Source: Alkalihalobacillus sp. FSL W8-0930 (GTDB lineage: Bacteria > Bacillota > Bacilli > Bacillales > Bacillaceae_D). Taken from it: a DNA stretch of 64,000 bases. The position numbers and the translations under genes are program-made. Positions 13,928 to 41,936 of the stretch are shown one piece after another (position 1 is the first letter of the stretch; every line of letters starts with the position of its first letter). The stretch covers positions 1,922,001 through 1,986,000 of the forward strand of contig CP150183.1 in NCBI GenBank assembly GCA_037965595.1. The letters are read 5' to 3'. The notes beneath the pieces are model-generated. The model made no database searches, was not told the DNA's origin, and saw only the letters and a program-made list of their open reading frames with translations.

Positions 13928-13998
13928 CCTATTACATTTCACCTCACCACCCCTCCTCACATAGGCTACTGTACCGAATGTTAAGGAGGGGGATCGTT

Positions 13999-14442
13999 AT
14001 GGTTGAGCTGACGTTTGCTCACTGGCTGTATCTTGCGGGTACGGTTTTAATTATTTTAACGATGTTATTCCGGCAAAATGTGTTGGTACCTTCGTTGTTT
14101 ATGACCTTTTTTGTTGGGTGGGTGTATACAGGTTCGTTTGTGGAAGGGTTGCAGACGACGTTTAGTGCGAGTTTGGTTGCAGCTGCGGAATTGTTTAATA
14201 TTTTCTTAATTATTACGGTGATGACGGCTCTTCTTCATGCGTTACGGTCTCTTCAGGCTGACGAGCGAATGGTGCGCCCGTTTGGGTACGTGATGAAGTC
14301 CGGTCATTCGTCTTTCTGGGTATTGGCTTTTATTACGTACGGGATCTCGTTGTTCTTTTGGCCGACGCCTGCTGTACCTTATGTTGTGAAAGGTACAAAA
14401 ACAGAAATCAAAACATGTATTTACGTATGCTTTGATATATAG
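13999..14442 (+). pseudogene. 5' fragment of a conserved polytopic membrane protein gene, truncated near 14388
   Basis: The first about 130 residues (starting MVELTFAHWLYLAGTVLIIL, with the conserved-looking FNIFLIITVMTALLHAL and ISLFFWPTPAVPYV) read as the N-terminus of a larger, multi-helix Bacillus membrane protein. I recall such proteins at about 450 residues, which I could not check. After VPYV at about 14388 the base composition drops to AT-rich and the reading becomes a short unrelated tail (KGTKTEIKTCIYVCFDI) before a stop. The start has a superb AAGGAGGGGG site. The remaining part of the gene is not in the window, so a large insertion or deletion has cut it. This is the best candidate for the left edge of the integrated element. 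Confidence 0.65.
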
Positions 14443-15323
14443 TCCTTGAAGAATTTACTAATATTTTCATCTGTCGTTAAGTCATAGTAAAATAGATGAC
14501 CTTGGCGATTAAACTTCGCAATTTTAGTTAGATTTAATTTACATAAACGGATGATACGCTTTTTTATTTTACTTTTAGCCGTTGAATCGATTGTATTTAG
14601 GAAATCTAATCTATTAAAGATCGTCTCATATCTTGCAATACAGGCAAACATGTAACTAAACGGTATTAATAATATAGATAGAATAACCGAAATTAACACT
14701 TCATATAGTATTAAAGATAAGTCAGCAAAATTATTTATTAATTGAATTACGGAATAAGTGAACAAGATTAACCCTGTCAATTTAAGCAAACATCCAGCTC
14801 CATCTCCAGCTGCTTTATATTCAGCCTTTTTATCATAACTATAAATAGCCACTATAAACGTTGATAATATAATTAATACTATTAAAGCTAATTCAATAGC
14901 AATTGAAAAAGTATAAAAATTAATCATACATTCCAAAAACACTACTATTGAAATTGCTTTCAAAAAGGTCCTTTTAAAATAAGAATTGTCCTCTGCATCT
15001 GATATGCTTTGAAATGTTACATAATATGGAACAGTTATTATCCATACTAAAACTGTTTTAAGATTACTTTCATCAACCAATCCTATAAAGTAGATTAAAG
15101 ATATAATCATACTACTGTATAGAGTTGTAAATATTCCTGCTATAACAATTCTATTATGCATTATTTTACTAAAGAAATTTTTTAATGATGCTCTACCTTC
15201 TGAAGTTGAAATTAGTAGAATAATAAAAAATAACACAATAAGTACATAAGCCCATTCTCTCGTATTTAAAAAGTTTAAAATTGTAATATCCTCCTTATAA
15301 GGTATCCCAAAGTTAAAATCCAA
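14421..15323 (-). CDS. Polytopic membrane protein, unknown function
   Basis: 300 residues with about seven hydrophobic helices (around 25-42, 60-80, 90-108, 120-140, 143-165, 178-200 and 205-232) and a basic, cytosolic C-terminal domain of some 65 residues ending FKDYISKHT. It is strikingly AT-rich compared with the chromosomal genes to the left. It faces the truncated gene and overlaps its tail by 22 bases, and it is separated from hag by the hag terminator. I know no family. Position in phage cargo would fit an exclusion or defence role, but nothing in the sequence proves it. Confidence 0.7.
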   Translation of the reverse strand: MDFNFGIPYKEDITILNFLNTREWAYVLIVLFFIILLISTSEGRASLKNFFSKIMHNRIVIAGIFTTLYSSMIISLIYFIGLVDESNLKTVLVWIITVPYYVTFQSISDAEDNSYFKRTFLKAISIVVFLECMINFYTFSIAIELALIVLIILSTFIVAIYSYDKKAEYKAAGDGAGCLLKLTGLILFTYSVIQLINNFADLSLILYEVLISVILSILLIPFSYMFACIARYETIFNRLDFLNTIDSTAKSKIKKRIIRLCKLNLTKIAKFNRQGHLFYYDLTTDENISKFFKDYISKHT

Positions 15324-15394: not shown

Positions 15395-15423
15395 CAAAAA
15401 AACTCGGCCAATTAAGACCGAGT
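15395..15423 (-). terminator. Rho-independent terminator of hag
   Basis: The stem ACTCGG/CCGAGT has a 10-base loop and is followed on the minus strand by seven T. It lies just past the flagellin stop. Confidence 0.88.
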
Positions 15424-15439
15424 CTAAATCTAGATACTA

Positions 15440-16618
15440 TTATCCTAGAAGTTGAAGAACTTGTTGTGGAGCTTGGTTTGCTTGAGCAAGCATAGATTGA
15501 GAAGCTTGAGAAAGAATGTTGTTCTTAGTGAACTCCATGATTTCTTTAGCCATATCAACGTCACGAATACGAGACTCAGCAGCTTGAAGGTTCTCAGAAG
15601 AGTTGTTCAAGTTAGAGATTGTATGCTCTAAACGGTTTTGGTTTGCACCTAGTTTAGAACGCTCAGCGGATACTTGATCAATAGCTGATTGAATCGTAGT
15701 GATTGCAGCGGCAGCACTATCGTGAGTTGATACATTAAGAGCTTGTTCAGTAACAGTATTGTTTGTACCATTAGTTACACCTAAATCTGCATCAGTAGTA
15801 CCAACTGAACTGATCCCTAAAGCAACTGCTCTCATATCAGCAATATCAAGTGTTAAGCTTTGGTTTTCGTTAGCACCAATTTGAAATTTCAAGCTATTAG
15901 TTGGATCAGCAACAGCATCTTCCTGAGCTATACCAGCAGTAGTTACTGTGTGAGTAGCTCCTGTTGGTGCTGTGTCAGTTTCTGCACCTTCAAGTTGAGT
16001 TAATACCAAGTTAGTTCCATCTTTAGTCGCAGTATACTTAACGTTAAGATCGGTATTTTGATTAATCGCGTCAACTAATTCATCTAAGTTATCAAAATCA
16101 GTTTCAAAAGTGAAAGCTTCGTCATCAATTGTAATAGTAGCTCCGCCAGCAGCAGCATATGTATATACACCTTGAACTGCTTTTGCAGAAGTACCATCTT
16201 TGTCACCGTTAAGAAGCTTCTGAGTATTAAACTCAGTAGTGTTACCGATGCGGTTGATTTCAGAGGTTAAAGAGTTCATTTCTTTTTGAATTTCGTTACG
16301 GTCTGAATCTGTGTTAGTATCATTTGATGCTTGTGTAGCAAGTTCGCGCATACGTTGAAGAATAGAATGAGTCTCACTAAGAGCTCCTTCAGCTGTTTGG
16401 ATTAAAGAGATACCATCTTGTGCGTTAGTGCTAGCTTGATCCAAGCCACGAACTTGAGCACGCATTTTTTCAGAGATTGCAAGGCCAGCAGCGTCATCTC
16501 CTGCACGGTTAATGCGAAGACCTGAAGATAGTTTTTCTTGAGCTTTTGCTCCGTTTGCTTGGTTCGCACCAAGTTGACGGTGAGCGTTCATTGCAGATAA
16601 ATTGTGATTAATAATCAT
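15440..16618 (-). CDS. hag: Flagellin
   Basis: 392 residues, longer than the 304 of B. subtilis Hag because of a larger surface domain. The conserved D0/D1 ends are intact: KLSSGLRINRAGDDAAGLAI and DGISLIQTAEGALSETHSIL at the N-terminus, and AESRIRDVDMAKEIMEFTKN with LSQASQSMLAQANQAPQQVL at the C-terminus. The centre (about 150-300) holds a flagellin_IN-type segment (TITIDDEAFTF, LDELVDAINQNTDLNV) and Thr/Ala-rich sequence. The leader carries two CsrA sites, one covering the AUGGAGGU ribosome site. The gene follows csrA, but the usual neighbours (fliW, flgK, flgL, fliD) are absent. Confidence 0.95.
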   Translation of the reverse strand: MIINHNLSAMNAHRQLGANQANGAKAQEKLSSGLRINRAGDDAAGLAISEKMRAQVRGLDQASTNAQDGISLIQTAEGALSETHSILQRMRELATQASNDTNTDSDRNEIQKEMNSLTSEINRIGNTTEFNTQKLLNGDKDGTSAKAVQGVYTYAAAGGATITIDDEAFTFETDFDNLDELVDAINQNTDLNVKYTATKDGTNLVLTQLEGAETDTAPTGATHTVTTAGIAQEDAVADPTNSLKFQIGANENQSLTLDIADMRAVALGISSVGTTDADLGVTNGTNNTVTEQALNVSTHDSAAAAITTIQSAIDQVSAERSKLGANQNRLEHTISNLNNSSENLQAAESRIRDVDMAKEIMEFTKNNILSQASQSMLAQANQAPQQVLQLLG

Positions 16619-16626
16619 TTAAGATT

Positions 16627-16666
16627 ACCTCCATGTTTTGTTTTTAGGGTCACATCCGTATGGCCC
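16627..16666 (-). promoter_or_regulatory. Two CsrA-binding sites in the hag leader
   Basis: The minus strand reads ATACGGATGT (16652-16661) in the loop of a GGG...CCC hairpin (16647-16666), and ACATGGAGGT (16627-16636) overlapping the ribosome site. Both fit the CsrA consensus RUACARGGAUGU around GGA. This is the layout of the B. subtilis hag leader, where CsrA blocks translation. Confidence 0.75.
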
Positions 16667-16708
16667 TTAATTTATATACAAAACTTCCTAAGAAGTGATG
16701 TAACTAAC

Positions 16709-16924
16709 TTATTTGATGTGCTTGCGATGTTCTTCTGCAAGAGCTTGAAGTGCTTCCCCGTGATCGGTTCTCTCTTCATAAATCTCTTCTCTTAGAATAT
16801 CCACACCAATTGGTGCATCAATTTTCAATCTGACAAGACCGTCTTCTGTTTTAAGAACTTGGACTTTAATAATGTCAGCGATAATAATCGATTGACCGTC
16901 TTTTCTTCCTAGTGTTAGTGCCAT
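16709..16924 (-). CDS. csrA: Carbon storage regulator CsrA, translational repressor of flagellin
   Basis: 71 residues. CsrA is a dimeric RNA-binding protein that binds GGA motifs. The family pattern is visible: LTLGRKDGQSIIIAD, VRLKIDAP and the RNA-binding Arg45 in DILREEIYEE. The N-terminus differs somewhat from the common MLVLTRK form. The ATG at 16924 has a GGGAGG site and removes an 11-codon upstream extension. It is transcribed from a sigma-D-type promoter and followed directly by hag, so repressor and target share a transcript. FliW, which normally titrates CsrA, is not encoded anywhere in the window. Confidence 0.92.
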   Translation of the reverse strand: MALTLGRKDGQSIIIADIIKVQVLKTEDGLVRLKIDAPIGVDILREEIYEERTDHGEALQALAEEHRKHIK

Positions 16925-16979
16925 TTTCAATCCTCCCTGATCTCCATCATTAATCATCTTCCATGATGTTCTACTTTTT

Positions 16980-17006
16980 ATATCGGAACTTTAATCAAGA
17001 TGTTTA
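16980..17006 (-). promoter_or_regulatory. Sigma-D promoter of the csrA-hag operon
   Basis: The minus strand reads TAAA (17003-17006), 15 bases, then TCCGATAT (16980-16987). The sigma-D consensus is TAAA-N15-GCCGATAT, so spacing is exact and 11 of 12 bases match. Confidence 0.8.
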
Positions 17007-17095: not shown

Positions 17096-17692
17096 TTGAT
17101 TAAAAACAAAAGTATACTTTTGATGTTTAGCACTTTTTCCTTCTTAGGAATTGTTGGTTGCTCTGACACATCAGCTGAAGATTTAAGTGGCAATGAATTA
17201 ATCGAGCTATTATCAAGTGAGAATACCCCTCAGTTTTATGACGATGAGGAGGTTATGGAAGAATATATAAAAAGTAATGGCCTATCATCTCTTGTTGAAG
17301 TTGACCCACACAATCTTAAAGAAAGTACTTTTTGGTCAATGGACACCCTTAATCAAGATGATAAAATACAAAACTTCTCCTTCTATCTGGATCGTATTGA
17401 TGCAACGTTAAATGAATTAGAGGCTTTAGATTTCTTACATTCGTTCTTCAATAATAATTTTTTGTCCAATTATGATGTTGAAAAGTATAAATATCTACAT
17501 TCTTCAGGCCGAGACGTATATGTCATAGAGTACAAGCAAAAAAATCTTGAGCAACCTATTGAAGAGATACCCAATGTATTCACCGTCAGTTTAGGAGTTG
17601 AAGAAGATCAAGTCGTTAGCTTACGAACAAGTAACAAATCTCCACGTGTAGCTGATATCGTAGAAACATACGACTGGGATTTACCATTTTAA
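17096..17692 (+). CDS. Lipoprotein, unknown function
   Basis: 198 residues starting at TTG, with a lipoprotein signal and lipobox GIVGC (Cys at residue 22). The mature domain is acidic, with alternating helices and strands (DRIDATLNELEALDFLHSFF) and a late conserved-looking YVIEYKQ strand. No domain was recognised. It is divergent from csrA, so the 17 kb intergenic region serves both. GGAG lies about 11 bases upstream, a little far, so the start is not certain. It may be part of the cargo region. Confidence 0.65.
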   Translation: MIKNKSILLMFSTFSFLGIVGCSDTSAEDLSGNELIELLSSENTPQFYDDEEVMEEYIKSNGLSSLVEVDPHNLKESTFWSMDTLNQDDKIQNFSFYLDRIDATLNELEALDFLHSFFNNNFLSNYDVEKYKYLHSSGRDVYVIEYKQKNLEQPIEEIPNVFTVSLGVEEDQVVSLRTSNKSPRVADIVETYDWDLPF

Positions 17693-17802
17693 TATAATCT
17701 CTTAAAAACACGTACTAGGCTATACTTAGAATTTATTAACATTGATCACGAACATACATTCCCATATAATTAGATCTATGATCTATTTAGGGAGTGTTTG
17801 TC

Positions 17803-18171
17803 ATGCCATCGTTTGAGGAGTTAGAAGAGTATAAAACATATCTAAGACGCGGTAATCTAACGTGGGAAGGCAGCAGAATGATGTTGCCAGAACACAAGGT
17901 GCGGATACTCGATAGCAATGAGCGTGACAAGCGAGTCGAAAAACATGAGCTGGATCCAGATGAACTGCAGGAAATTGGATACGTGGTAATGGATGCGCTG
18001 AACTACACTAAAAAGGTACAAATAAATTATTGGGATGATTGGGCTTACCATGAAATTTTGTGTTTTATCTTAAGTGTAAGTAGGGATCAAAAACAAATTA
18101 AAGTGGAAAACGAGAATGGGGACATTGATTATATTCAGGTGGAGTGTCTTCGTACTGTGTTGCTGTTATGA
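17803..18171 (+). CDS. YolD-like protein
   Basis: 122 residues of the YolD family, named for an SPbeta phage gene and often paired with Y-family DNA polymerases (UvrX/YqjW). The signature is RRGNLTWEGSRMMLPEHKVRI near the N-terminus, followed by a beta-rich C-terminal domain with KKVQINYWDDWAYHEI and a DYIQVECL strand. No polymerase gene is next to it here. The ATG at 17803 has a GGGAG site. Its last 74 bases overlap the convergent HEPN-like gene. Function is unknown; a phage-borne copy fits the cargo region. Confidence 0.75.
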   Translation: MPSFEELEEYKTYLRRGNLTWEGSRMMLPEHKVRILDSNERDKRVEKHELDPDELQEIGYVVMDALNYTKKVQINYWDDWAYHEILCFILSVSRDQKQIKVENENGDIDYIQVECLRTVLLL

Positions 18172-18415
18172 AGGTTAAGAGCGTGGATATTAATTTAAAT
18201 TCACTTTCGTTTATAGGTTCAAAGTGGGCTACCTTGTTTCTAATTCGAATTGAATCTTTGAGTAATTTTAAAACATAAGGGGTATACATATCTGAGTATC
18301 GGTTATTAACTTTCCTGACGTTCAAAGCATAATCAAACTCAATTAGATTGTGTCTTTGAATAAGTAATTGATTGATATTGAATAATTTCACATAGGTTTT
18401 TGAGTTTAAAGACAA
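18098..18415 (-). CDS. Small HEPN-like protein, possible Abi-type RNase
   Basis: 105 residues from a TTG start at 18415 that has an outstanding AAGGGAGGTG ribosome site; an ATG 24 codons upstream lacks one. The C-terminal half contains LKLLKDSIRIRNKVAHFEPI, a R-N-x3-H arrangement that matches the HEPN catalytic motif R-x4-H and recalls the C-termini of Abi-like (AbiD/AbiF) proteins. Full Abi proteins are near 300 residues, so this is either a compact HEPN module or a remnant. It overlaps the convergent YolD gene by 74 bases. The strong ribosome site argues that it is expressed. Confidence 0.5.
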   Translation of the reverse strand: MSLNSKTYVKLFNINQLLIQRHNLIEFDYALNVRKVNNRYSDMYTPYVLKLLKDSIRIRNKVAHFEPINESEFKLISTLLTFITATQYEDTPPEYNQCPHSRFPL

Positions 18416-18601
18416 TTGACACCTCCCTTTATATGGTTTCAATGTCATCAGCCAAATACCTTTATTTTTTTGATTTATTACTGACATTTAAATGAGTTTC
18501 TTTTCACATATCTTTCATAAATTATTTATACAATGTAGCCGATCTATATTGTAAACAGTATTCTATTATGAAATACTACAAATAACAGGGGGTGTTTTAA
18601 A

Positions 18602-19063
18602 TTGACTACAATTATGGAAGTTGCAAATTTCTTTCTACAAAAAACAAATCATGAGACAGAAACAGTGATCTCACCTTTAAAATTGCAAAAAGTTTGTTAC
18701 TATGCTCAAGCGTGGTGTCTAGCTTTAAATGGTGTAAGACTGTTTGATGACGAATTTGTTGCATGGCCACATGGACCTGTAAACGAGGATCTTTACCATA
18801 AGTACAAAGATTACAAATGGAGACCGATTGACTTTCCAGAGGATTTTGATGACAGTGTTCTTTCTCTTCAGGAAAGAAACTACTTGAACGATGTTTGGGA
18901 GTTATACGGAAAGTATGACGCAAAGTACTTAGAGGACCTTACACATCAGGAGTTACCTTGGCAAGAAGCTAGAGAGGGTTATCCAGAAGGTCATCATTGT
19001 AGCGTTGTAATTAGAGAAGAAACAATGCGCAACTATTATAGAGAGTTGCTTGCTGATGGCTAA
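18602..19063 (+). CDS. Panacea-domain (DUF4065, SocA-like) antitoxin
   Basis: 153 residues. The Panacea layout is plain: VANFFLQKTN, then LKLQKVCYYAQAWCLALNG, then EFVAWPHGPVNEDLYHKYK, with a helical C-terminus. In Caulobacter SocA the domain acts as a proteolytic adaptor or antitoxin; in many phages it neutralises a downstream toxin. TTG start with a GGGGGTG site. The end overlaps the next gene by eight bases, the usual coupling in a toxin-antitoxin pair. Confidence 0.85.
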   Translation: MTTIMEVANFFLQKTNHETETVISPLKLQKVCYYAQAWCLALNGVRLFDDEFVAWPHGPVNEDLYHKYKDYKWRPIDFPEDFDDSVLSLQERNYLNDVWELYGKYDAKYLEDLTHQELPWQEAREGYPEGHHCSVVIREETMRNYYRELLADG

Positions 19064-19496
19064 AAGGATCAAAGTAAGCAACCCAAAAAATCAAAACAAA
19101 ATATCTGGAAAAACAATTTCTGATAAAGCGTTAGAAGTGAGGAATCCAGGACATAACACAAACGATTTGGCTCCTCACTTCTCATTCAAACATGCTTGTA
19201 ATCATCATTTCCAACTATCAGATTGGCAATCTATTGAATTAGCTGAGCTAATAGAGTGCTTTAGAAAGCTCGAAAGTCAGAGTTGGACAAACATAATGAA
19301 ACAAAGTAAAAGAGGTCTTGGATACTGCAAGGTGGATCCTAAAACTTTCAGTAAATCTTTACCTGAATACATATCGCCGGAACATACAATAATTGAATTA
19401 AGAGTAAACAAAAAAGCTAGATTGTTTGGTTATAGATGGGAAAATGTTTTTCATATTATCTGGTTCGACCGAAATCATGATGTATATCCTATGTAA
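19056..19496 (+). CDS. Probable toxin partner of the Panacea antitoxin
   Basis: 146 residues. The C-terminus IELRVNKKARLFGYRWENVFHIIWFDRNHDVYP is cut here to its core, RLFGYRWENVFHIIWF, which has the strand pattern and the terminal D-x-N-H-x-V-Y-P ending seen in a toxin family that often follows Panacea genes. The first about 35 residues are basic and probably disordered (SNPKNQNKISGKTI). I chose the ATG at 19056, inside the end of the antitoxin frame. A strong terminator closes the pair. The biochemical target cannot be told from sequence. Confidence 0.7.
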   Translation: MAKRIKVSNPKNQNKISGKTISDKALEVRNPGHNTNDLAPHFSFKHACNHHFQLSDWQSIELAELIECFRKLESQSWTNIMKQSKRGLGYCKVDPKTFSKSLPEYISPEHTIIELRVNKKARLFGYRWENVFHIIWFDRNHDVYPM

Positions 19497-19538: not shown

Positions 19539-20636
19539 TTAGTTTATTACTTTATCTAGTTCTCTATAAGTGTTAGGTCCTGCGACCCCATCCACTTCAC
19601 GAGGCAAATATACTTTTTGGAAACGTGTCACAGCATCTTCAGTCTTTTTACCAAAGTCATTATCAACGGAACTGACTTTGAAGTTAGCTGCATTTAAAGC
19701 TGTCTGAAGCAAACCTACGTCATTTCCTTTACTGCCACGTCTAAGCGTAGCAGACGGCAAAGAATATTTTTTCTTAGAGGGCTTTGGTGCAGGAGTAGAC
19801 TCTACCTTCCCATCAAACTCAACAAATTGTGTGTTGGCTGTGATGTAGAGACCTGAGATCAGCTGATACATTTTTGAACCGTTTACCGTAAGCTCACGAG
19901 CAACCGTGAAGGCTTCACCTTTAGACACTTGGAATGACTTTGAATTCCAATCAGCCTTGTCGTATACCCATAGCTTGTCTGCTTTTACACGTAATAGTGA
20001 TTTACCGACATCATCTGATTTAACCGGTGCAGATGGTTGTACCGGCGTACTTGGTACATTTCCGTTTGATTTAGGAACAGTAACGCTGTAGAAATTACAA
20101 ATACCTACCAGCAATGCCTGAGCATATGCTTCATCAAACGCAGGTGTAAGCATCCATTTACGTGCTTCCGGATTCGAAAAGAAATCACCTTCCGTAAGAA
20201 TGGCCAGCATGTTTTTGTATGTGGCTCTCAACACACCAAAGTTAGCTCGTTTTACGCCACGGTTTGGTTTCTTTAATCCTGCAACCAGGGCAGATTGTAC
20301 AGCTTGTGCAATGGCCAGTGATGCATGACTATCCGTATGGATAAAGGTTTCCGTACCAGTAACGCTGGTGTCGCTGTGTGCATTTGAATGGATAGAACAG
20401 AATAAATCCGCCTTCGCCCTTACCGCATTCGCTCCACGTTGAGACAAGCTTAAGTCATTTGGACTGTTGATATCGCAAGAGTACATGGTACGAAAGCCAG
20501 CATCCTTCAGCTTTTTATCTAACAGTCTGGCCACGTTACGGTTGCTTAAATACTCGTAGTAAGTAGGATTACTCCCAGCACGTTTACCTGGTGTATTCTT
20601 TGCGTGACCTGGATCGATACAAATTAATTTACTCAT
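19539..20636 (-). CDS. Phage endolysin, N-acetylmuramoyl-L-alanine amidase (Amidase_3) with SH3b and peptidoglycan-binding domains
   Basis: 365 residues, last gene of the late operon. The Amidase_3 catalytic domain (1-180) shows the zinc ligands His11 in DPGH, Glu28 in YEYLSNR and the His of SIHSNAH, plus the catalytic Glu in ILTEGDFF. A linker with Pro-rich stretches leads to an SH3-like domain (about 215-280) and a C-terminal PG_binding_1 domain (LRRGSKGNDVGLLQTALNA). It cuts the bond between muramic acid and the peptide, releasing phage progeny. No signal peptide is present, so the holin just upstream is needed for export. Confidence 0.93.
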   Translation of the reverse strand: MSKLICIDPGHAKNTPGKRAGSNPTYYEYLSNRNVARLLDKKLKDAGFRTMYSCDINSPNDLSLSQRGANAVRAKADLFCSIHSNAHSDTSVTGTETFIHTDSHASLAIAQAVQSALVAGLKKPNRGVKRANFGVLRATYKNMLAILTEGDFFSNPEARKWMLTPAFDEAYAQALLVGICNFYSVTVPKSNGNVPSTPVQPSAPVKSDDVGKSLLRVKADKLWVYDKADWNSKSFQVSKGEAFTVARELTVNGSKMYQLISGLYITANTQFVEFDGKVESTPAPKPSKKKYSLPSATLRRGSKGNDVGLLQTALNAANFKVSSVDNDFGKKTEDAVTRFQKVYLPREVDGVAGPNTYRELDKVIN

Positions 20637-20637
20637 G

Positions 20638-20904
20638 TTAATTTACCTCCTTAGATTGTCCATCGCGATGTTTAAATAATTCAAATAAACCTGTACCTGA
20701 CAACCCTGCAAAACCACCGGCCCATAACCTTAAGACCAAATCCATTTCAGTGAATGGTGTAGCAAGAGCTCCTACAAATAAGCCGATCCCAAATGAAATT
20801 AGAGGTAGTAGATTTACCTTGATATTGACTGCCTTTTTAAGTACCTGGATAAGCGCCAGAACCACCGGTGCAAGAACCGAGGCAAACAACAAAACTTCTT
20901 CCAC
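20638..20904 (-). CDS. Phage holin
   Basis: 88 residues with two hydrophobic helices (about 3-22 and 32-52), a third weaker one (66-80) and a short charged tail (FKHRDGQSKEVN). It lies one base upstream of the endolysin, which sets its role: pore formation at lysis. The layout resembles the A118-type holins of Listeria and Bacillus phages. A GGGAGAT-type site precedes the ATG. Confidence 0.82.
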   Translation of the reverse strand: MEEVLLFASVLAPVVLALIQVLKKAVNIKVNLLPLISFGIGLFVGALATPFTEMDLVLRLWAGGFAGLSGTGLFELFKHRDGQSKEVN

Positions 20905-22239: not shown

Positions 22240-24279
22240 TTATACTCCTTTCAACTGACGAACGAGTTTTACGACCTCTGCCAGCATTAGTTCATGTGCA
22301 GTTACCTGTTGCTTAGTATCTGTATTTCTTTCAACCTCTTTTTCGAAAGCAGACTTAAAGCTTGATTGATAAGTTACACTGGCTTTAGATAAAGTAGTTG
22401 TAAGTGTATGCTTATCTAAAACAATATAGGTAACAGTGTAAGTGGATTGTTCGTCATATTCAGATACAGGTATTCTTGCTAATTGTGTACCCGCTGAGTT
22501 CACATGATTATTACTGATGTTCCACTTCTTATCTAAAACACCGTCTCTATAGACCCCTACAATATATTTGTCTCGATACTTCAACTTAGAAGCACCATCG
22601 CTCACACTTTTTTGATTGATTAAAAATTCTCCGCTAGCGCGAACAGGATTAACGATTTCCTTAGTAATTATTCCTTCTTCTATCTCAATTAAGTTACTAC
22701 CTCCATGTAAGCTTATTTCGCCTTCTTCACTTAATGAACGTTCAATTGGAACTGCGAGTTCATAATGAACGAGAAATGGGTTATCTCTAAAGAAGTTATT
22801 CACTTGTTCATTAGTTGGAGTAACACCATCAACAAAGCCTGTACGTTCATTAGGAATAGTTATAGAAAAACTACTATCATTATGAAACAAGGCTGAAAAT
22901 GGTTTATTTTGATCTTTGTCGCTGTACACAGAACCACTATTAGTATCATGGGCGAATACATTGGGTGTACTACCCTTTGCCTCTTGGAAAAGAGAGAAGT
23001 CTACAGGTTTTATTCTTTTAAAACCGATCCCTTCTTCCATAACTCTCATAGATTTAGAACCATCAATCATCCCACTTTTCATCCTTTGAATTGAAACATA
23101 ATTCCCATTCTTTTTATAAATACTATCGCGAACCGTTCCGTCTGAAGATGAGCCTAGAAGAGTGTCCGAAAAGTAAAGATAATCATTATTTTGTGGTTGG
23201 AAAGAAATCATCCTAGAACCAATTGTTAAACTGAAGTTTGTAAATGAATACGTACCTGGAGTCGATAAACTAGAAAGCCTAATTTCAAGATATTTTGTAC
23301 CAGGTAAAGTCTTAAACGTTCCTCTACTCGCTCCAGTGCTCACATAAGCACTTTCATCATTGGATGCTGCATTTTTATGATAAGCTATTACTCCATTATT
23401 AGTACCATCAGTCTCAACATCGCATTGCAATGTGTATACCTGATTAGGTACAGCTGGTATATGAAATCTAGCAAACTGATCGGTGCCATTGGAAATGAAT
23501 TTCAGTTCATAAGGCATCAAACTGATGATATCTTTAGTTTCTAGCCGCGAAGTAAAACTATCAGGAAAAGCAGGGAGTAGATTTTTTCCTTTTTTCACTA
23601 CCACCGGATTGCGTACATGTTGAACACCTTCAATAAACGGATACCTTTCACCTAATTTTGATTCTGTAAGTAACAGAGCTTCAGAATACTCAGATTGAGT
23701 GAGCTCAAAAAGTGTTATTTTTTCAAAGCTTATAAGTTCTTTAAGTTGAGCAGTATCAATCCTTAAATATAATTCATTCTCACCATTACTAATGAATAAA
23801 ATTTTGCTTTGAACCGGTATCCCACCTCTTACAGTTGGTGTTGCTTCGTGAATGGTAGTTCCATTAAACCCATCTTTACGAATCTGTACTCTACCATTTG
23901 TTAAACAATTTAGAAGATACGGTTTGTTAGCTTTCAATTTCAATTTAAAGTACTGCATTTGCCAATCGCCTTCTGGCATAATTTTTATTGAATGAGCAGT
24001 GGTTTCCCATTTACCTGAATGTCTCACCCATCTTTCTGATAAAAAGTTAGGTAACAGGTTTACTCTCGTCTGTCCTGTGATCAAAAAATCAACTGGCCCC
24101 GGTTGCTCACTCTCTACAAGATTTAATCCATGCTTTAAAGGTGCGGTGATCGCATCCTGAGAACGAAGCTGATCGGCAATCTTTTCGTCGCGTTCCTTTA
24201 ACTCATTTTGTCGCTTATTGAAGTCATCTGCATAAGCTGCAGTATCAGTTGTAAATGGCGTAACCTCAGGTAGTTTCAT
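22240..24279 (-). CDS. Large tail-fibre or receptor-binding protein
   Basis: 679 residues, beta-rich. The N-terminal 45 residues form a helical attachment region (DDFNKRQNELKERDEKIADQL). Two jelly-roll-like modules follow (around 60-210 and 230-380; each starts with a NLLP or NLLPAFPD segment and ends in a carbohydrate-binding-like strand set). The last 40 residues are a coiled coil (VERNTDTKQQVTAHELMLAE). The place between the baseplate and lysis genes fits a host-recognition protein. I see no enzymatic motif. The repeated NLLP modules suggest domain duplication. Confidence 0.72.
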   Translation of the reverse strand: MKLPEVTPFTTDTAAYADDFNKRQNELKERDEKIADQLRSQDAITAPLKHGLNLVESEQPGPVDFLITGQTRVNLLPNFLSERWVRHSGKWETTAHSIKIMPEGDWQMQYFKLKLKANKPYLLNCLTNGRVQIRKDGFNGTTIHEATPTVRGGIPVQSKILFISNGENELYLRIDTAQLKELISFEKITLFELTQSEYSEALLLTESKLGERYPFIEGVQHVRNPVVVKKGKNLLPAFPDSFTSRLETKDIISLMPYELKFISNGTDQFARFHIPAVPNQVYTLQCDVETDGTNNGVIAYHKNAASNDESAYVSTGASRGTFKTLPGTKYLEIRLSSLSTPGTYSFTNFSLTIGSRMISFQPQNNDYLYFSDTLLGSSSDGTVRDSIYKKNGNYVSIQRMKSGMIDGSKSMRVMEEGIGFKRIKPVDFSLFQEAKGSTPNVFAHDTNSGSVYSDKDQNKPFSALFHNDSSFSITIPNERTGFVDGVTPTNEQVNNFFRDNPFLVHYELAVPIERSLSEEGEISLHGGSNLIEIEEGIITKEIVNPVRASGEFLINQKSVSDGASKLKYRDKYIVGVYRDGVLDKKWNISNNHVNSAGTQLARIPVSEYDEQSTYTVTYIVLDKHTLTTTLSKASVTYQSSFKSAFEKEVERNTDTKQQVTAHELMLAEVVKLVRQLKGV

Positions 24280-24297
24280 AGCTTTTCATCTCCTTTC

Positions 24298-24678
24298 TTA
24301 GTACATATCATCGATCTCAAAACCAAACTGCATGTCTCCATCTTTGCGTTTGCTGTACATGGTACGAATAGCTGTAAACTTTCCATCTTCATCAACTAAA
24401 GCCATTTCATTAATGTTCCGGCCAACAAGTTCTGACTCGCCAAGTGTAATTACATACCGCATGGTAGCCGGAGCGATGAAACTGGCACTCTCAATAGCTT
24501 TGCGAACTAATTGATTTTTAAGCGCTTGCTCATTTCCTGTTGGAGCGACAGGATTACCAGCTGAATCAACGCCCCCATCACCTAAAGCAATGTGTGTATT
24601 CTTCGTAATACGTGATCCTGATGCGCGAGCTTTCGCCATTTGTTCTCGAGCATAAACCGTTGTTTTTGTTGTACTCAT
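24298..24678 (-). CDS. Tail-collar-fibre N-terminal domain protein (DUF3751-like)
   Basis: 126 residues. The opening AREQMAKARASGSRITKNTH and the segment HIALGDGGVDSAGNPV are the hallmarks of phage tail-collar fibre N-terminal domains, which join fibres to the baseplate. The downstream large gene then provides the distal fibre. In many myoviruses these two parts are one polypeptide; here they are split by 18 bases. GGAG precedes the ATG. Confidence 0.8.
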   Translation of the reverse strand: MSTTKTTVYAREQMAKARASGSRITKNTHIALGDGGVDSAGNPVAPTGNEQALKNQLVRKAIESASFIAPATMRYVITLGESELVGRNINEMALVDEDGKFTAIRTMYSKRKDGDMQFGFEIDDMY

Positions 24679-24691
24679 GTTCTGATCTCCT

Positions 24692-26170
24692 TTATAGTGC
24701 GATTTTTTCAGAGGTTGCGTTCAAACGTCTACTTCCATCAAGTTTTACCGAGCCGTCCAACGTCCACCAATCCTTGCGTACAGTAAGTACCCCTTTACTA
24801 GTAGTGGGCATTCGTACCACGCTTTTAAAGGTCACCTTTTGTCTGAATAGAAGCGGATGCAAATTGTTGAATCCGTTTAAATACCAACTGCCATCAAGGT
24901 TGTCTACACCATTCAGATAAATGGGTAAGACACCAAAGAAACCTAGACATGTACGGAAGACCTGCTTTTGTTTTTGATCTTTCTTTTCAAGTGAATCAAC
25001 CTTTGCTCTAACAGCTGCGGCAATTTTCGTTTGTTGTTTTTTAGGAACCTTAAATCTCGTTTTTAACTTTTTAGCAAACACCTGGCGCGGATATTTATCG
25101 TTTGTACCATTGAGGTACCAGCTGCCATCTAAATAGTGACGGCCGTTTAAAGACACCGGCACAAAACCAAAAAAGCCAATAGCAGCTCGAATGATCATCT
25201 TGCGCCATTGGATATCCTTATTTTGATACGAATGATTCTGAGATCGAACCTTTTGCTTAGCTCTTGATTGCATCGATTGTTCACTAATCATCTTCATTAA
25301 CAATTTGTGACCAAACAACTGCCTTCTGTACCGGTTGTCATAGCCATCAAGAGAGAAAGTACCGTCCAGGTTGTATACACCATCCAAATAGACCGGCAAC
25401 ATATCAAAGAAGCCTACTCGAGTACGAAAGCGACTTTTCTTACCATAGTCTTTAAGTTCAAACGGAGCAGTGATAGCGCGAAAGATCATCTTTTCATGAT
25501 GCGATAACTCAGCTTCAATCTTGCTTCTAAACTTAATAAAAAACTGATAATACTCATGAATTTTTTTCTCCGAGAAACCATTTAAGCTCCATGAACCATC
25601 TAATTTATGATTACCGTCTAAATAAACACGTGATACTTTATCCCAATAAGGATGAACCGTCTTGATTTTTAATTTCTGTTTGTACTGAATTGAGTTATCT
25701 GTATGCTCCTTAAACAGTGCTCTGAATGTGTAAGCCAAATGTGCTGGCTTCATACGCTCTAGTTGCTGAATGATTTGTGTCCCGTACTGCAAGTCATATC
25801 CATCTATGTTCACCATGAAATGAGGTCGACCTGGTGTGCTCCTTACAACGGTTGAAGGATTCATCAAGTATCGATTAATGGTCCGTTCCAACGTTTTGTA
25901 TGTTGTAGAAGGGAAGTTACTAATCTGTGAAATGATGCGGTTCCTTCTAACGTAAATATCGTCTGAACTATCTCTATCACTTGAAAGAAGATCCTCCCAT
26001 CGATCCAGCCCCCATGTAGCGGTGGGAATGAATAGTTGATCGGTCATATCAAAAAGGAGATCGTTGAGCTGCTGAAACTCTTCTGCTTCAGTACCAACGA
26101 TCTCCTTCATCTCAACTAAACGATTCAACATAGGTGGTAAATAGGCTTCCATTTCCTCTCGCTTACTCAT
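24692..26170 (-). CDS. Baseplate protein: YmfQ/XkdU-like N-terminus plus five LDGSWxLNG repeats
   Basis: 492 residues. The first about 170 (LPPMLNRLVEMKEI, then DRWEDLLSS and RNRIISQISNFPSTTYKTLE) form a DUF2313/YmfQ domain, as in PBSX XkdU, a baseplate wedge protein of about 200 residues. The extra 320 residues hold five copies of a L-D-G-x-x-x-L-D-G-S-W-x-L-N-G unit near residues 190, 270, 350, 423 and 477, separated by basic helices rich in Lys and Gln. Its end overlaps the baseplate J gene by eight bases. The repeats probably extend the wedge toward the fibres. Confidence 0.8.
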   Translation of the reverse strand: MSKREEMEAYLPPMLNRLVEMKEIVGTEAEEFQQLNDLLFDMTDQLFIPTATWGLDRWEDLLSSDRDSSDDIYVRRNRIISQISNFPSTTYKTLERTINRYLMNPSTVVRSTPGRPHFMVNIDGYDLQYGTQIIQQLERMKPAHLAYTFRALFKEHTDNSIQYKQKLKIKTVHPYWDKVSRVYLDGNHKLDGSWSLNGFSEKKIHEYYQFFIKFRSKIEAELSHHEKMIFRAITAPFELKDYGKKSRFRTRVGFFDMLPVYLDGVYNLDGTFSLDGYDNRYRRQLFGHKLLMKMISEQSMQSRAKQKVRSQNHSYQNKDIQWRKMIIRAAIGFFGFVPVSLNGRHYLDGSWYLNGTNDKYPRQVFAKKLKTRFKVPKKQQTKIAAAVRAKVDSLEKKDQKQKQVFRTCLGFFGVLPIYLNGVDNLDGSWYLNGFNNLHPLLFRQKVTFKSVVRMPTTSKGVLTVRKDWWTLDGSVKLDGSRRLNATSEKIAL

Positions 26171-27248
26171 ACAGGTTCACCTCTGCTAGCCTCGGAATCT
26201 CAATTTCATCAAGTTCAAGGTTTCCGCTTTGGCCATCGATCAAAACCTCAGCATAGTCAAAAACAGAAGGTGAGCGTTGAAGGATCTGGTTGATCTGACT
26301 CACACGAATGAATGGGTCCTCAAATGCCAATGTCCTGAACAGTGCTTGAACACCCTCCCGAACTTCTCTCTCACAGTCTTCAAGCGTTCTTCCGGATGAA
26401 AGAACAATCTTTGCACTGATGGCTATATCTTTCCATTCTGCGCTAACAACAGTAGCTTTGGCTCCAATTGGTGCCTCACCCTCTCCGTGACCTTCTTCCG
26501 GATCAATGAACGTTTGAACGTCATTAATTAACCTGGTAGTAGCAGGCTCAATGTTTGCATCAGTAATAACAATTCTCACTGTCCCTTCACCATAAGCTAA
26601 CGGGAAAATTTTCGCCTTCCCTACTCCTTCAACAGATTCAGCCCACTGCTTATAATGTGCCGCGTTTCCTGAAACAGCTTCTCTCCTTACACGGACTTGA
26701 TATCGTGCAAAAAGAGCTTGATCTGTTTCCTCCTCCGCACCTGGTACGAGTAAACTGACTAATTGCGCTGTCTCAAGACCTGGTATTGTTTCGACAGGTT
26801 GGAGCGGGAGATCCTTCATACTTGAAACGTTCCCCGCTTCACCAGCTGTTTCAGCTCTCAATTGTGAATTCCCAAGCGATTGAAAATATATAGAATGTGA
26901 TTCAAGAAAGAACCGCATACCTGCAGGTACAGACACATTAAAACGAGCATCCCAAACGGCTCTAGTTGCAGGTACACGCTCAATTCCAGCTTCAACTACA
27001 CGCTTATCAAGAAACTCCCCAGTTGCTGTATCAGCGAAAACTAGATCAAATGAAGCCTCTAACCATGCATAAGACTGAGTTACTTCTGCCGCTGCCGGTG
27101 CAAGTGCATTCCAGATGATACTTCCCTCTCGTTTATCAATATCATTTGGTACCCTATCCAACATACGCTCCATGATGGCTTCAAACGTGTAACTCTGAAG
27201 CAAATCAACGACTTCTTGATATCTTTTATTCGCTAAGGTTTCCCGCAT
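26163..27248 (-). CDS. Baseplate J / gp47 family protein (XkdT-like)
   Basis: 361 residues. Baseplate_J family markers: [20 protein letters not shown] near residue 37, [13 protein letters not shown], the [20 protein letters not shown] region and [20 protein letters not shown]. It builds the wedge of the contractile baseplate. The ATG has an AGGAGGTGG site and overlaps the upstream gene's end by 23 bases. Order XkdS-XkdT-XkdU is kept as in PBSX. Confidence 0.92.
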
Positions 27249-27660
27249 CGCCTACCACCTCCTGAACGTCAAATAAGCCCTCCACACTTTCAACGGTAAA
27301 GGACACAAAGAAGGAATCTCCTCGTTTTTCAACTTCCATATTCGATATCGCCTCGATACGTTCATCGTAAAGAAGGGCTTCCTCAATTACTCGAGGGATC
27401 TCCATTTCTTTATACGCGTCAGAAGCCTCCTCATCAGCACACACGGCCTTTAGTTCACTGCCAATGTCATGGCTATAGATTGCATAAGCAAATCGCTCAG
27501 TACGTATAGAGAGAATGACAAATTGCTTAATTGCATCAATGCCATCGATTAAACGAGTAGATATTCTTCCGGTGTCGAAATCAATTGCGTACGTGGCTGA
27601 TGTTTCAATTTCTTCTGAATCTACATCTTCCACAAAATTTAATCCTGGTGTAATCGTCAT
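27226..27660 (-). CDS. XkdS-like baseplate protein (DUF2634)
   Basis: 144 residues. DUF2634 marks: [40 protein letters not shown], then SHDIGSELK. The family is homologous to gp25 of T4, part of the baseplate wedge. GAGG precedes the start. It fits the PBSX order between DUF2577 and Baseplate J proteins. Confidence 0.88.
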
Positions 27661-27669
27661 CTGAACCTC

Positions 27670-27933
27670 CTAAATGGCATCCAGTACATAAAACGACTGA
27701 CCACCTTGTAATTTAATCGTCATCACTTTGTCCCCTACTCTCAAAGCATAATCACCAGACCGAAGTCTACGGGGTACCGTTACAAGGTCACCTGGTATGA
27801 CTAATTTTGCATTAGACTGCAATCTAATTGAGATGGGTGAGACTGTGGCAACCGTTGCACTAATGAGCTCTGTTAATTCCTGAGCTTCACCAGCTTTTTG
27901 TAATAGTGACATTAACTCCGTTTCGAAGCTCAC
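27670..27933 (-). CDS. XkdR-like protein (DUF2577)
   Basis: 87 residues, beta-rich: a helical start (FETELMSLLQKAGEAQEL), a strand pair (SPISIRLQSNAKLVIPGDLV) and a C-terminal pair (GDKVMTIKLQGGQSFYVLD). It matches the DUF2577 family, an OB-fold-like baseplate component. Its start overlaps the XkdQ stop by one base. Confidence 0.85.
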   Translation of the reverse strand: MSFETELMSLLQKAGEAQELTELISATVATVSPISIRLQSNAKLVIPGDLVTVPRRLRSGDYALRVGDKVMTIKLQGGQSFYVLDAI

Positions 27934-28919
27934 TAACTCACCTCCGGTATACGATTATGCTCCACAAGATCAAGAGTCATTGTGTGTTTATTACCATGGA
28001 ACGAATGTGAGTCTGAATCAACCCAATGCGTTTTATTTAAACCGATCTCATCTATCTTCACACTAACCGGCAAACCGCTTGTTACATCAGGTATGCCGAC
28101 AGCAATCAGACCTTGTAACTTCTTTTTAACGCCTTTCAATTCTTTCTGTTTATTATCCGCTCGCCGTTGTAGCTGAGCCTTATTCATTTCCTCTGTTACA
28201 TTTTCGCTATACTGCAGCACACCGAATTTAGAAGCACCGGAATTATCTCGAGCAGTCACAGTGGTTGTTTTTCCATCAACCTCATGTGTCATTTTTACTC
28301 GAGTCGCTGATTCCTCAATACTTGTACTGTATTCCCAGCTGATGATATTTCCTGTCTTTCCAGTCTCTAATACCCATATGTCAGAGGGATCCGGCCAAGC
28401 TCGCAATCCTAACTTACCTTCAGACGAATACAACTGATAATTACGGCCATTCTGTTCCCTCGTTTGTTTGAGAGCCTTTAAGATGATGTCATACAAACTG
28501 GTTTGCTGAGTGATAAGCAGGGATTTAATGACATGGCCCGTATTAATGATTGAAGTCATAGGGATATCAAAGTCATTGCAAATGCGTCGAACAATTTGAT
28601 CTGCGCGTTGATTTGTAAAAACATAGACATCATCGTTACGTACGATGTACGTAAGCATATCAAGCGCTTCAAAAAAGAGCGTATTGCCACGAGGGATACG
28701 ACTAAACACCACGCCTCTAAATAACTCTTTACCTTTCCATTTCAAAAGAATGGTGTCGCCCTCTTCAACGCTAAAATATTTGTCATTACCCTGCTTCGTC
28801 ACGATAGTTGCTTGAACCTTACGTGGCGCTTGAAACCTCTTGCCTTCCCACTTCACTTCACCCTCAACAACAAGCTCAAGACGCTCGGTTGACTTCACAT
28901 TCCAAATTTCAATACTCAT
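27933..28919 (-). CDS. XkdQ-like baseplate hub protein
   Basis: 328 residues of the XkdQ/YqbQ family, related to gpD/gp27 hub proteins. Signs are the N-terminal WNVKSTERLELVVEGEVKWE strand set, EGDTILLKWKGKELFRGVVF, TYIVRNDDVYVFTNQRADQI and the late VGIPDVTSGLPVSVKIDEIG. It links tube and spike. An insertion of about 1.2 kb (small plus-strand gene and HNH endonuclease) separates it from the LysM protein, its neighbour in PBSX. Confidence 0.88.
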   Translation of the reverse strand: MSIEIWNVKSTERLELVVEGEVKWEGKRFQAPRKVQATIVTKQGNDKYFSVEEGDTILLKWKGKELFRGVVFSRIPRGNTLFFEALDMLTYIVRNDDVYVFTNQRADQIVRRICNDFDIPMTSIINTGHVIKSLLITQQTSLYDIILKALKQTREQNGRNYQLYSSEGKLGLRAWPDPSDIWVLETGKTGNIISWEYSTSIEESATRVKMTHEVDGKTTTVTARDNSGASKFGVLQYSENVTEEMNKAQLQRRADNKQKELKGVKKKLQGLIAVGIPDVTSGLPVSVKIDEIGLNKTHWVDSDSHSFHGNKHTMTLDLVEHNRIPEVS

Positions 28920-29113
28920 ATGTCACCTCCTAATTGATGTATTGGAACGGCAAAGACCTTGTTTATGGCATTGCATACAATTCTTAAATTCATTCCATGA
29001 AGTAACTTTCTATAACTAAATCACTCCTAAAAACTCCTAAAAACATGTGATTTTCTTATTAATGCGGGTATGGTAAAAATGTAACCACATTTTTTATAAA
29101 GGAGGAGTTAGCA

Positions 29114-29221
29114 ATCGAAACTTTCCTATTTTTCGGTATTATGATATTGACGCCTGTTATATTAATAGGTGGGGGCTTAGCAGCAACTATCTATGGAATT
29201 AAAAACATTCGCGAAAATTAA
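29114..29221 (+). CDS. Tiny single-helix membrane peptide, possible AUC start; toxin-like
   Basis: 35 codons on the strand opposite the late operon: ETFLFFGIMILTPVILIGGG, then LAATIYGIKNIREN, one transmembrane helix and a charged end. The AAAGGAGGAG ribosome site lies 6 bases before an ATC codon; the first ATG is nine codons in and lacks a site. A strong terminator follows at once. Size and layout recall type I toxin peptides of Bacillus prophages (such as BsrG and TxpA), but no antisense RNA has been identified. It may instead be a random open stretch between promoter-like and terminator sequences. Confidence 0.4.
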   Translation: METFLFFGIMILTPVILIGGGLAATIYGIKNIREN

Positions 29222-29254
29222 GAAAAAACCAGGCATTATGCCTGGTTTTTTCTT
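29222..29254. terminator. Strong hairpin terminator after the plus-strand membrane peptide
   Basis: AAGAAAAAACCAGGC / GCCTGGTTTTTTCTT with a 5-base loop, T-rich on both strands. It can end both the small plus-strand gene and the endonuclease transcript. Confidence 0.88.
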
Positions 29255-29304
29255 AGAGATAATCATTATATAAAAACATCAACTATATCAAGTCAAAAAG
29301 AAGC

Positions 29305-30162
29305 CTAATGCTTCTTAATTGGTTCTTCAATTATTCTATTTACCTCCCAACCACGATAGTATCTGTTTCTAAGTGCACCTTCGCGAACACCGAGGAGTGC
29401 TGCCCATTCATCAATATGTTTTGTTTCACCTTTGTAGGTGAGCATTAAAGATCCTTGATATTTTCTAGGTTCAGTTAGTTGTGCTCCATAATGACCTTGT
29501 TTTAACCTACTTCTTAACGTGGCAACAGAGAGGTTTAATCTCTTTGCAAGATCTAACAATCGAAGTTTTTCTCCTTGATAATCAATGTATGAAGTATTCC
29601 TCTTATTCATTTGCTGATCCTGCATGGTAATCCATTTACAGTTGTTAAAAGAATAATCATCATCTACGTTTATTCTTTCAATTGTAAGATTGTTAGAATA
29701 ACTTCCCCCCATGTCACTATAGAAGTTTGAGAAATCATGCCATCTCGAAACAACCTTTATGCCTCGTCCTCCGTAATTCTTAAAATCTTTCGCCTTAGGT
29801 TCGTGACATCTTTCAATCATGTGTGACCAAATACGATAAATTCTAGTATTCGATTTACCATGTTTGAGATTTGAATCACCCATTTGTTTGGCTTTCTGTG
29901 AATCTATAATTACTTTCCAACAGCCGCAGCTTTTAATTCTCTTTTTCCTAATCCCATCCCCATGAACTAACTTTTCATTACCACATTCACATAAGCACAT
30001 ATAATAGCGTTGTTTGGCTTTGCCTGGAGTAACTCTTTGATATACTTTTTTAACAGTTAACCAGTGAGATACTGAACCTATCCATTTTTTTGAAATAACA
30101 TTATCTTCATCTAATTCTTCAAACAAATCACCGTTGAATTGAAGCATGGACATTGAATTCAC
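29305..30162 (-). CDS. Free-standing HNH/AP2-type homing endonuclease-like protein
   Basis: 285 residues. An N-terminal zinc ribbon (CLCECGN and KSCGCW) is followed by the core RIYRIWSHMIERCHEP, NYGGRGIKV, W-H-D-F-S-N-F and LTIERINVDDDYSFNNCKWI, the pattern of phage HNH/AP2 proteins that insert beside late genes. The C-terminal 100 residues have two short helix-turn-helix-like DNA-binding repeats (LRLLDLAKRLNLSVATLRSR and EWAALLGVREGALRNRYYRG). It sits inside the tail operon between XkdQ and XkdP and is more AT-rich than both, so it is a recent insertion. Confidence 0.8.
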   Translation of the reverse strand: MNSMSMLQFNGDLFEELDEDNVISKKWIGSVSHWLTVKKVYQRVTPGKAKQRYYMCLCECGNEKLVHGDGIRKKRIKSCGCWKVIIDSQKAKQMGDSNLKHGKSNTRIYRIWSHMIERCHEPKAKDFKNYGGRGIKVVSRWHDFSNFYSDMGGSYSNNLTIERINVDDDYSFNNCKWITMQDQQMNKRNTSYIDYQGEKLRLLDLAKRLNLSVATLRSRLKQGHYGAQLTEPRKYQGSLMLTYKGETKHIDEWAALLGVREGALRNRYYRGWEVNRIIEEPIKKH

Positions 30163-30185
30163 CCCTCATGATAATTGTATCATTA

Positions 30186-30857
30186 TTACTGGGGAATTCG
30201 TAAAGTTTGATTCGGGTATATCCAATGGCCAGGTTGCCGGTTGTTACGCTTATCACGTTTGATCATCATTGCCTTGTTTGCATTCCAGATCTTTCGCCAA
30301 TCAGTATTTTTACCGTACTGCCTCCCTGCAATCGCCCAAAGAGTGTCACCTTTTTTTACTTTATACGTTTTATCAGGCTTCTTAGCAGGCCGTTTTGCTG
30401 CAGCTGGTTTTTTCGGTGCTGCTTTGACTTTAATCTTTCGTGGAGTAGCGACCTTATATTCTTTAAGAGAAATTGAGTAATCTCGATCGCCTACTGCACT
30501 CTCACCCTCTGACCAATCAAATGCCTCAAGACTACAATTAAAATTGATCTTGGTACCAGTAACGATAAGACGGATTGGTTCGTTTTTATTCCTCCACTTT
30601 TCAAGTGTCTGAATGCAGTTTTCAGGTGATGGGAATCCCTTGTATTCACATATAGGTGAATGTCGCAATGGAAAAAAAGAATCCAAGCTAATTTGCTTGG
30701 ATCCTTGTTCTTTAATAAATGTTAATTCGCCGAGCTTGTCTACCTCTACTGAATCAGACTGCATGTTGCTTGTTAATTTAATGGCTTCCGGAAGAACAGG
30801 GAGCCTAAGCTTTTCCTTCCCTTGCGAAAGCCAAATTTCATACTTCGATTTAGCCAT
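30186..30857 (-). CDS. XkdP-like tail protein with LysM domain
   Basis: 223 residues. The N-terminal domain ([20 protein letters not shown], then [20 protein letters not shown]) is the XkdP/YqbP fold of hub-associated proteins. A basic Pro/Lys/Ala linker ([16 protein letters not shown]) leads to a C-terminal LysM domain ([20 protein letters not shown]) that binds peptidoglycan. It probably helps the tail engage the cell wall. Overlaps the tape-measure end by eight bases. Confidence 0.9.
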
Positions 30858-37026: not shown

Positions 37027-37044
37027 TGTTTGTCCTCCTTTCTC

Positions 37045-37727: not shown

Positions 37728-37760
37728 TCATGCTCCTTTTATTTGAGTTTAGTTTTAATA

Positions 37761-37783
37761 TAAAAAAGGGCCGAAGCCCTTTT
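37761..37783 (-). terminator. Terminator after the tail tube gene
   Basis: The stem AAAAGGGC/GCCCTTTT with a UUCG tetraloop, followed by TTTTTTA on the minus strand. It would make transcripts of the abundant tube protein more numerous than those of the tape measure. Confidence 0.85.
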
Positions 37784-37785
37784 GA

Positions 37786-41933: not shown

Positions 41934-41936
41934 GTA

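Follow-up and report, generated by a model that had tools for sequence, protein, structure and literature searches.

A prophage of Alkalihalobacillus sp. FSL W8-0930 carries a two-gene flagellar operon, csrA-hag. The pair lies in a 64-kb stretch of the genome (bases 1,922,001-1,986,000 of contig CP150183.1; single-contig genome of 3,885,014 bases, G000 below), which is referred to here as the window, and it is a cargo gene pair (moron) of a contractile-tailed prophage of ~51.5 kb that splits a host gene. Our preferred reading, to which we give a probability of about 0.5, is that csrA-hag serves a temperate phage as a flagellar-conversion cassette; a FliW-blind CsrA would lower the level of host flagellin, and the phage flagellin would replace it.

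The operon occupies positions 15395-17006 of the window, bounded by a terminator-like hairpin at one end and a sigma-D-type promoter at the other. Its parts are:

16980..17006 (-), sigma-D (flagellar) type promoter, TAAA-N15-TCCGATAT, 5' of csrA; a match without mismatches
16709..16924 (-), csrA, 71 aa; in alignments, R44 is present and I/V51 and N55 are absent
16619..16708 (-), hag leader, 90 nt; CGGA hairpin loop and GGA at the Shine-Dalgarno, CsrA-site-like in predicted folds
15440..16618 (-), hag, a 392-aa flagellin; D0/D1 complete, middle variable
15400..15425 (-), intrinsic-terminator-like hairpin 3' of hag, a sequence match

The csrA open reading frame spans 16709..16957 (-), but translation more likely begins at 16924, giving 71 aa. 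Its product belongs to the CsrA family (Pfam CsrA, E 3.9e-16, 59.2 bits against a cut-off of 27; Arg44 present), and the hag product is a complete flagellin by its domains (Pfam Flagellin_N, 5.8e-51; Flagellin_C, 2.2e-31). The earlier note on this DNA had described a complete flagellin gene with its CsrA, and the operon is indeed intact, with both Pfam flagellin domains and with its own promoter and terminator, these last two present as sequence matches only. The pattern TAAA-N16-CCGATAT occurs four times in the whole genome and the reversed control pattern three times, so that the count alone says little; two of the four sites are the csrA-hag promoter and the promoter 5' of the host hag. The pair also stands alone, as had been claimed for fliW, flgK/L and fliD. 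A phmmer search of the window (E up to 1e-4) for relatives of FliW, FlgK, FlgL, FliD, FliS and FlaG found none, and csrA-hag are the only flagellar genes that these searches found there.

The prophage around the operon has genes for sheath, tape measure, baseplate, portal, terminase, holin, endolysin, repressor and serine recombinase (virion genes from a PHROGs scan of eight proteins). Its features in and near the window are:

13978..14379 (+), 5' portion of the host gene that the prophage splits; the intact form has 481 aa in the congener G002
14370..14382, attL junction region, GCTGTACCTT; attR has GCTGTTCCTT, and the crossover position is approximate
14421..15323 (-), membrane-type ORF of 300 aa between hag and attL, shared with a sister prophage; it matched nothing in Pfam, PHROG or PADLOC
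17096..19496, accessory block of the prophage: lipoprotein-like ORF, YolD, SocA/Panacea gene and partner
19539..20904 (-), lysis module: matches to Amidase_3 endolysin and Hol118-type holin
22240..48630 (-), virion genes, with PHROGs matches to baseplate, tape measure, sheath, prohead protease, portal, TerL and TerS
61938..62294 (+), CI-type HTH repressor of the prophage
near the window end, start of an ImmA/IrrE peptidase gene; the serine recombinase lies beyond the window end (L008)

The truncated host gene suspected in the earlier note is real. In the congeners G002 and G003 the gene continues across the junction (in G003 with an apparent frameshift further along), and the rest of the gene is located after the serine recombinase, ~51.5 kb from its start. 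These two congeners have an empty site, and the CsrA search found no phage-type CsrA in either of them. The csrA-hag pair lies between the lysis module and attL, inside the prophage borders, as expected of cargo; the borders and the empty sites together rule out a host hag locus mistaken for cargo. In a further congener, G001, a sister prophage (L036) occupies the identical site and also has csrA-hag. The host gene of G004 stops at the same junction point and adjoins other phage-like genes (L137), and csrA-hag was absent there from the 3.4 kb after the junction and from the CsrA search. Among the 41 genomes of the family that were searched, only G000 and G001 have the window's CsrA (100% identity; next best 54%).

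Two side observations concern neighbouring genes. The endolysin at the occupied att site of G004 is related to that of the window. At positions 18602-19496, a 148-aa ORF that matches NsnC in PADLOC (4.4e-13) comes after a SocA/Panacea-type gene, and the two are possibly a toxin-antitoxin or defence pair to judge by these matches; in the sister prophage (L036 5983-7568) the Panacea gene is divergent, and its partner is a different one that gave no match.

The host has a flagellar system of its own. Its fliW-csrA locus lies between flgL and flaG-fliD and has no hag; flaG-fliD follow fliW-csrA directly (L009 6523-7639; G000:C1 ~3,050,500-3,051,640). The main hag (L010), which encodes 387 aa, is found elsewhere in the genome with a sigma-D-type promoter 5' of it, and a second host flagellin has 270 aa (L011). 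With a full hag, a small flagellin and fliW-csrA all found in the genome, the phage hag is not the only hag of the strain. The finding that the earlier note had named as fatal to its cargo reading, a sole hag locus located here in prophage-free relatives too, is thereby contradicted. Nor is the middle of the phage flagellin enlarged relative to the main host flagellin (392 vs 387 aa), as had been supposed for its D2/D3 part. Just upstream of the 270-aa flagellin gene is a FliS-like gene (L011 6750-8856), and similar small flagellins with a FliS-like gene occur 5' of flgK in L035, L050, L068 and L084.

Codon use lends no support to a foreign origin. GC3 is 0.232 in the phage hag and 0.209 in the host hag, nearly host-like, and foreign composition was rejected as a marker of the phage gene. 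Recent gene conversion from the strain's own host hag is unsupported as well, because over the first 390 nt the phage hag is closer to that of the sister prophage (0.890) than to the own host hag (0.833); identity to the host hag of A. gibsonii is 0.877.

The phage CsrA seems, from its sequence, to have lost the FliW-binding part by which the host switches off such repressors. N55 and V51 of CsrA are needed for FliW binding (PMC7829508, in the part available). These residues were compared in 70 CsrAs encoded directly upstream of a flagellin (69 of them distinct, L027 and L266 being the same locus), a non-random sample from scans seeded with the window's flagellin and phage CsrAs. The CsrA of L211, where the flagellin start fell outside the motif of the script, is not among these rows and was read directly. 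All 32 FliW-adjacent CsrAs have N55 together with Ile51 (31) or Val51 (1), and N55 plus I/V51 occur together in 0/38 of the other CsrAs. Asn is aligned at position 55 in three of the latter (L135, L258, L273); one more, the CsrA of L092, where a fragment of FliW lies at the end of the contig, has Ile51 and no Asn55. R44 is present throughout (70/70). The window's CsrA lacks I/V51 with N55 and has no adjacent fliW, which places it outside the FliW-regulated CsrAs. A CsrA tree agrees with this division: the FliW-type CsrAs fall into one clade (99/98) that includes none of the 12 phage CsrAs, and also contains L041 and L092 as long branches without N55. The phage label requires three changes on this tree, which is built from 72 columns and leaves many forks unresolved. 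The earlier note had held the CsrA to be under control of the host FliW or under no control; since the window's CsrA lacks the FliW-binding residues, the comparison leans towards the second. At L017 (7502-7876) and L022 (7537-7908), CsrAs with two CsrA stretches each are encoded beside fliD-like genes and hag.

For the lysogen, the following sequence of events can be proposed. Host sigma-D would transcribe the phage csrA-hag alongside the host's own hag. The phage CsrA has kept the RNA-binding arginine and lacks the FliW-binding residues, so host FliW should be unable to inactivate it. It would bind the GGA hairpin of the host hag leader, and less host flagellin would be translated. The phage flagellin could be exported and polymerised by the host, since its D0/D1 core is close to that of the host genus; it would bring its own exchangeable surface part, giving a filament that is wholly or partly phage-encoded. 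A possible benefit is an altered surface towards flagellotropic phages. This reading agrees with the flagellar-type promoter, the missing FliW contacts of the CsrA, the flagellin core resembling the host genus and the exchanged surface part, and it draws further on the recurrence of the pair in other phages. We infer repression of the host hag from two points, namely the CsrA-type site in its leader (ACACAAGGAUGUGU, with the GGA within a hairpin loop of the predicted fold) and RIP-seq of a comparable accessory CsrA, which has a peak at CAAGGAUG in a stem-loop (PMC13418256, in the part available); the host leader is of that motif type.

The leaders also hold an argument against this conversion reading. 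The window's phage hag leader itself has a GGA hairpin as well as a GGA at the Shine-Dalgarno, so that repression of the phage flagellin by its own CsrA is conceivable; the hag leaders of L214 and L219 even contain CAAGGAT. If it limits its own operon only, as a private thermostat, the phage flagellin would be mixed into the filament and the host hag would stay unsilenced. Such autoregulation through GGA sites would fit the predicted folds of the csrA leaders: in 10 of 12 phage pairs a GGA lies inside a predicted hairpin loop, against 2.8 expected from shuffles, a result that counts for the conversion reading as well. It would also fit the hag leaders, as the hairpin of the window recurs in L036 with GGA in the predicted loop of both. 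The fold of the window's hag leader has z = -2.4 in one run and is better than 94% of shuffles in another; in most leaders, fold stability is no better than in shuffles. Further, chromosomal csrA2-hag2 pairs stand beside fliW-csrA1-hag1 in intact-looking flagellar clusters, and since short CsrA-hag pairs occur in such ordinary clusters, silencing of the host flagellin is not needed to account for the pairing. Against a purely additive flagellin stands the host hag leader, whose CsrA site is at least as near the published motif as that of the phage; a phage CsrA that is active should therefore act on it too. We consider the additive alternative unlikely, though far from negligible, because escape of the phage operon from its own CsrA is the main uncertainty.

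The motif CAAGGAT, found in the hag leaders of L214 and L219, was considered as a mark of host versus accessory hags and rejected. CAAGGAT/C is present in both classes (17/35 leaders behind Asn55-column CsrAs vs 13/35 behind the rest) and does not separate them.

Eleven further csrA-hag pairs, from phages, phage-plasmids and the sister prophage, were compared with that of the window. Besides the window and L036, the 12 pairs are:

L007, 52.6 kb; portal match, terminase above cut-off
L140, 123.9 kb; assigned to phage by an amidase and a neighbourhood resembling L213
L211, 124.7 kb; portal, terminase and tape measure
L213, 124.2 kb; tape measure and portal
L214, 48.3 kb; terminase, portal, tape measure and integrase
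L219, 194.7 kb; terminase above cut-off
L226, 99.9 kb; terminase above cut-off
L015, Bacillus phage EZ-2018a, 118 kb; terminase below cut-off
L013 and L014, on plasmids

The plasmids belong to one family of 200-212 kb from B. licheniformis, B. paralicheniformis and B. halotolerans, all five members of which carry csrA-hag. The family is called phage-plasmids here because the two members checked both match tail sheath and terminase profiles (terminase above cut-off in both). An informal count by size and hallmark genes gives at least five phage genome types with the pair. L041 (Shouchella) was left out, its context being not clearly phage and its promoter off consensus. L225, with a TnpB-family gene, resolvase, csrA and flagellin, resembles published csrA-tldR loci and was kept outside the phage count.

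The wiring of these pairs is uniform at the promoter and varied further along. A TAAA-N13-17-NNCGATAT promoter lies at most 200 nt upstream of csrA in 12/12 phage pairs and upstream of 0/345 other ORFs (called mechanically) of the same loci, for a pattern fixed after several of these pairs had been seen. Six pairs have the hag start -11 to 30 nt after csrA, and the remaining six have it 57 to 90 nt after; for L211 and L226 the conserved Met was taken as the hag start.

The phage csrA-hag pair is recurrent but uncommon. A flagellin scan of IMG/VR gave the pair in 8 of 20 loci (including L225, set aside), and INPHARED holds 12 records with flagellin, two of which were inspected (L015 with csrA, L016 without). 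In the viral CsrA scan, a flagellin lies beside csrA in 2 of 67 loci. The other 65 show csrA on many viral contigs with no neighbouring flagellin, which speaks against the conversion reading and would suit a phage CsrA that regulates host mRNAs in general or brakes motility in phage development, with the flagellin secondary or serving as a FliW sponge. The position of the pair behind a flagellar-type promoter and a dN/dS of 0.07-0.09 at the hag ends of the sister prophages argue against this role, which we hold to be improbable.

Between the window and the L036 prophage, csrA has 16 synonymous changes and no nonsynonymous one. Two blocks align between the prophages: one of 800 bp (91.6%), which starts at the promoter and takes in the first third of hag, and one of 1781 bp (91.2%), which covers the final part of hag and extends as far as att. 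The hag middle gave no blastn match, and the two flagellins are 392 and 504 aa long. An identical csrA is shared by the phage-plasmids CP014843 and CP035189, and their hag genes reach identities, per 100-column window, of 0.88-0.99 at the ends and 0.40-0.59 in the middle. By these alignments, the hag middle (the surface part) was exchanged in each of two phage families, with csrA and both ends of hag left in place. The swapping of the filament surface proposed in the earlier note thus gains support at the sequence level from two cases, the sister prophages and the phage-plasmids.

In the hag phylogeny the phage label needs eight changes, at least six of them forced by supported branches. The hags of the window and L036 group with Alkalicoccobacillus and Shouchella flagellins (99/91), and only for these two does the tree show a core matched to the host genus, a point that counts against the conversion reading. 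L214, of which an unlabelled identical copy from the same contig (L283) is in the tree, groups with Peribacillus, and the neighbours of L007 are Heyndrickxia and Bacillus renqingensis. A separate clade is made up of five other phage hags; L211, L213 and L226 have no firm neighbours. The resemblance of the window and L036 hags to the host genus, like the occurrence of a similar architecture on Bacillales chromosomes, would be explained if phages had merely acquired a host csrA2-hag2 cassette that serves no phage-specific function. Such a passenger would hardly be expected to recur in several phage genome types, to be present in all five phage-plasmids of one family, to show purifying selection on csrA, or to exchange its surface part in two families; of the alternatives discussed, this is the one we consider most remote.

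Under the conversion reading, these comparisons matter beyond one strain. If it is true, flagellar remodelling by phages would be a recurrent strategy that extends beyond TldR prophages. The phage CsrAs would then offer naturally occurring FliW-blind variants with which to probe the FliW-CsrA-Hag checkpoint, and what phages gain from re-dressing flagella could be tested in laboratory strains of Bacillus. Among the matches listed in a literature search that covered few subscription papers and no bioRxiv preprints, no title or abstract opening dealt with a phage-borne csrA-hag.

Among the closest known systems is the FliW-CsrA-Hag homeostasis of Bacillus subtilis (PMC6529632, in the part available), with which the phage unit shares a CsrA-family protein, a flagellin and GGA sites in the leader; it differs in having no fliW, a CsrA without FliW-binding residues, and a second flagellin. 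Also close are the chromosomal csrA2-hag2 pairs of Bacillales, which lie between csrA1-hag1 and flaG-fliD. There too a short CsrA without the FliW residue pair is encoded directly 5' of hag, but the hag leaders mostly have ~190 nt, unlike the six of 12 phage pairs with a csrA-hag gap of at most 30 nt. Flagellar clusters with csrA1-hag1-csrA2-hag2 were seen in L259, L263-L265, L269 and L271-L274, the second CsrA being short and devoid of the FliW residue pair; this order suggests one CsrA for each flagellin. Because short CsrAs precede the second hag in these chromosomal clusters, the cassette is not restricted to phages.

An accessory CsrA linked to flagellin is also known from the csrA-tldR-fliC loci of Oscillibacter and Flavonifractor, where a CsrA of this type has a RIP-seq peak on the fliC 5' UTR (PMC13418256, as above). 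Those loci are chromosomal, paired with TldR and mostly accompanied by hin (PMC13418256); L225 is of this kind. The present pair, in contrast, is phage-borne, and a search with one TnpB profile (PF07282) gave no match in 12 genomes or records, its own included, the virus records being possibly fragments. TldR control of the phage flagellin was rejected on this ground.

A further close parallel is the TldR-FliCP system of the Flagellin Remodeling prophages (FRphi) of Enterobacter (PMC13418256), for which the available part of that account mentions a screen of 1144 phages that found no flagellotropic Enterobacter phage. In both cases the flagellin of a temperate phage has complete N and C domains and a variable surface, and its gene is linked to that of a candidate repressor of the host flagellin. 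The repressor of FRphi is an RNA-guided transcription factor derived from TnpB (PMC13418256); here it is a CsrA. Phage-borne flagellin is thereby extended to another phylum, with a different linked regulator, and its carriers with csrA-hag include a temperate prophage, larger phages and phage-plasmids. Because similar pairs occur in these other phages, they too may re-dress the flagellum of the lysogen. Tentatively, and at somewhat less than an even chance, the csrA-hag pairs could represent a post-transcriptional flagellin-swap cassette common to several kinds of Bacillota phages, in which a FliW-blind CsrA would silence translation of the host flagellin and sister phages would exchange the surface part of their own flagellin, an independently evolved counterpart of TldR-FliCP that works through an RNA-binding protein.
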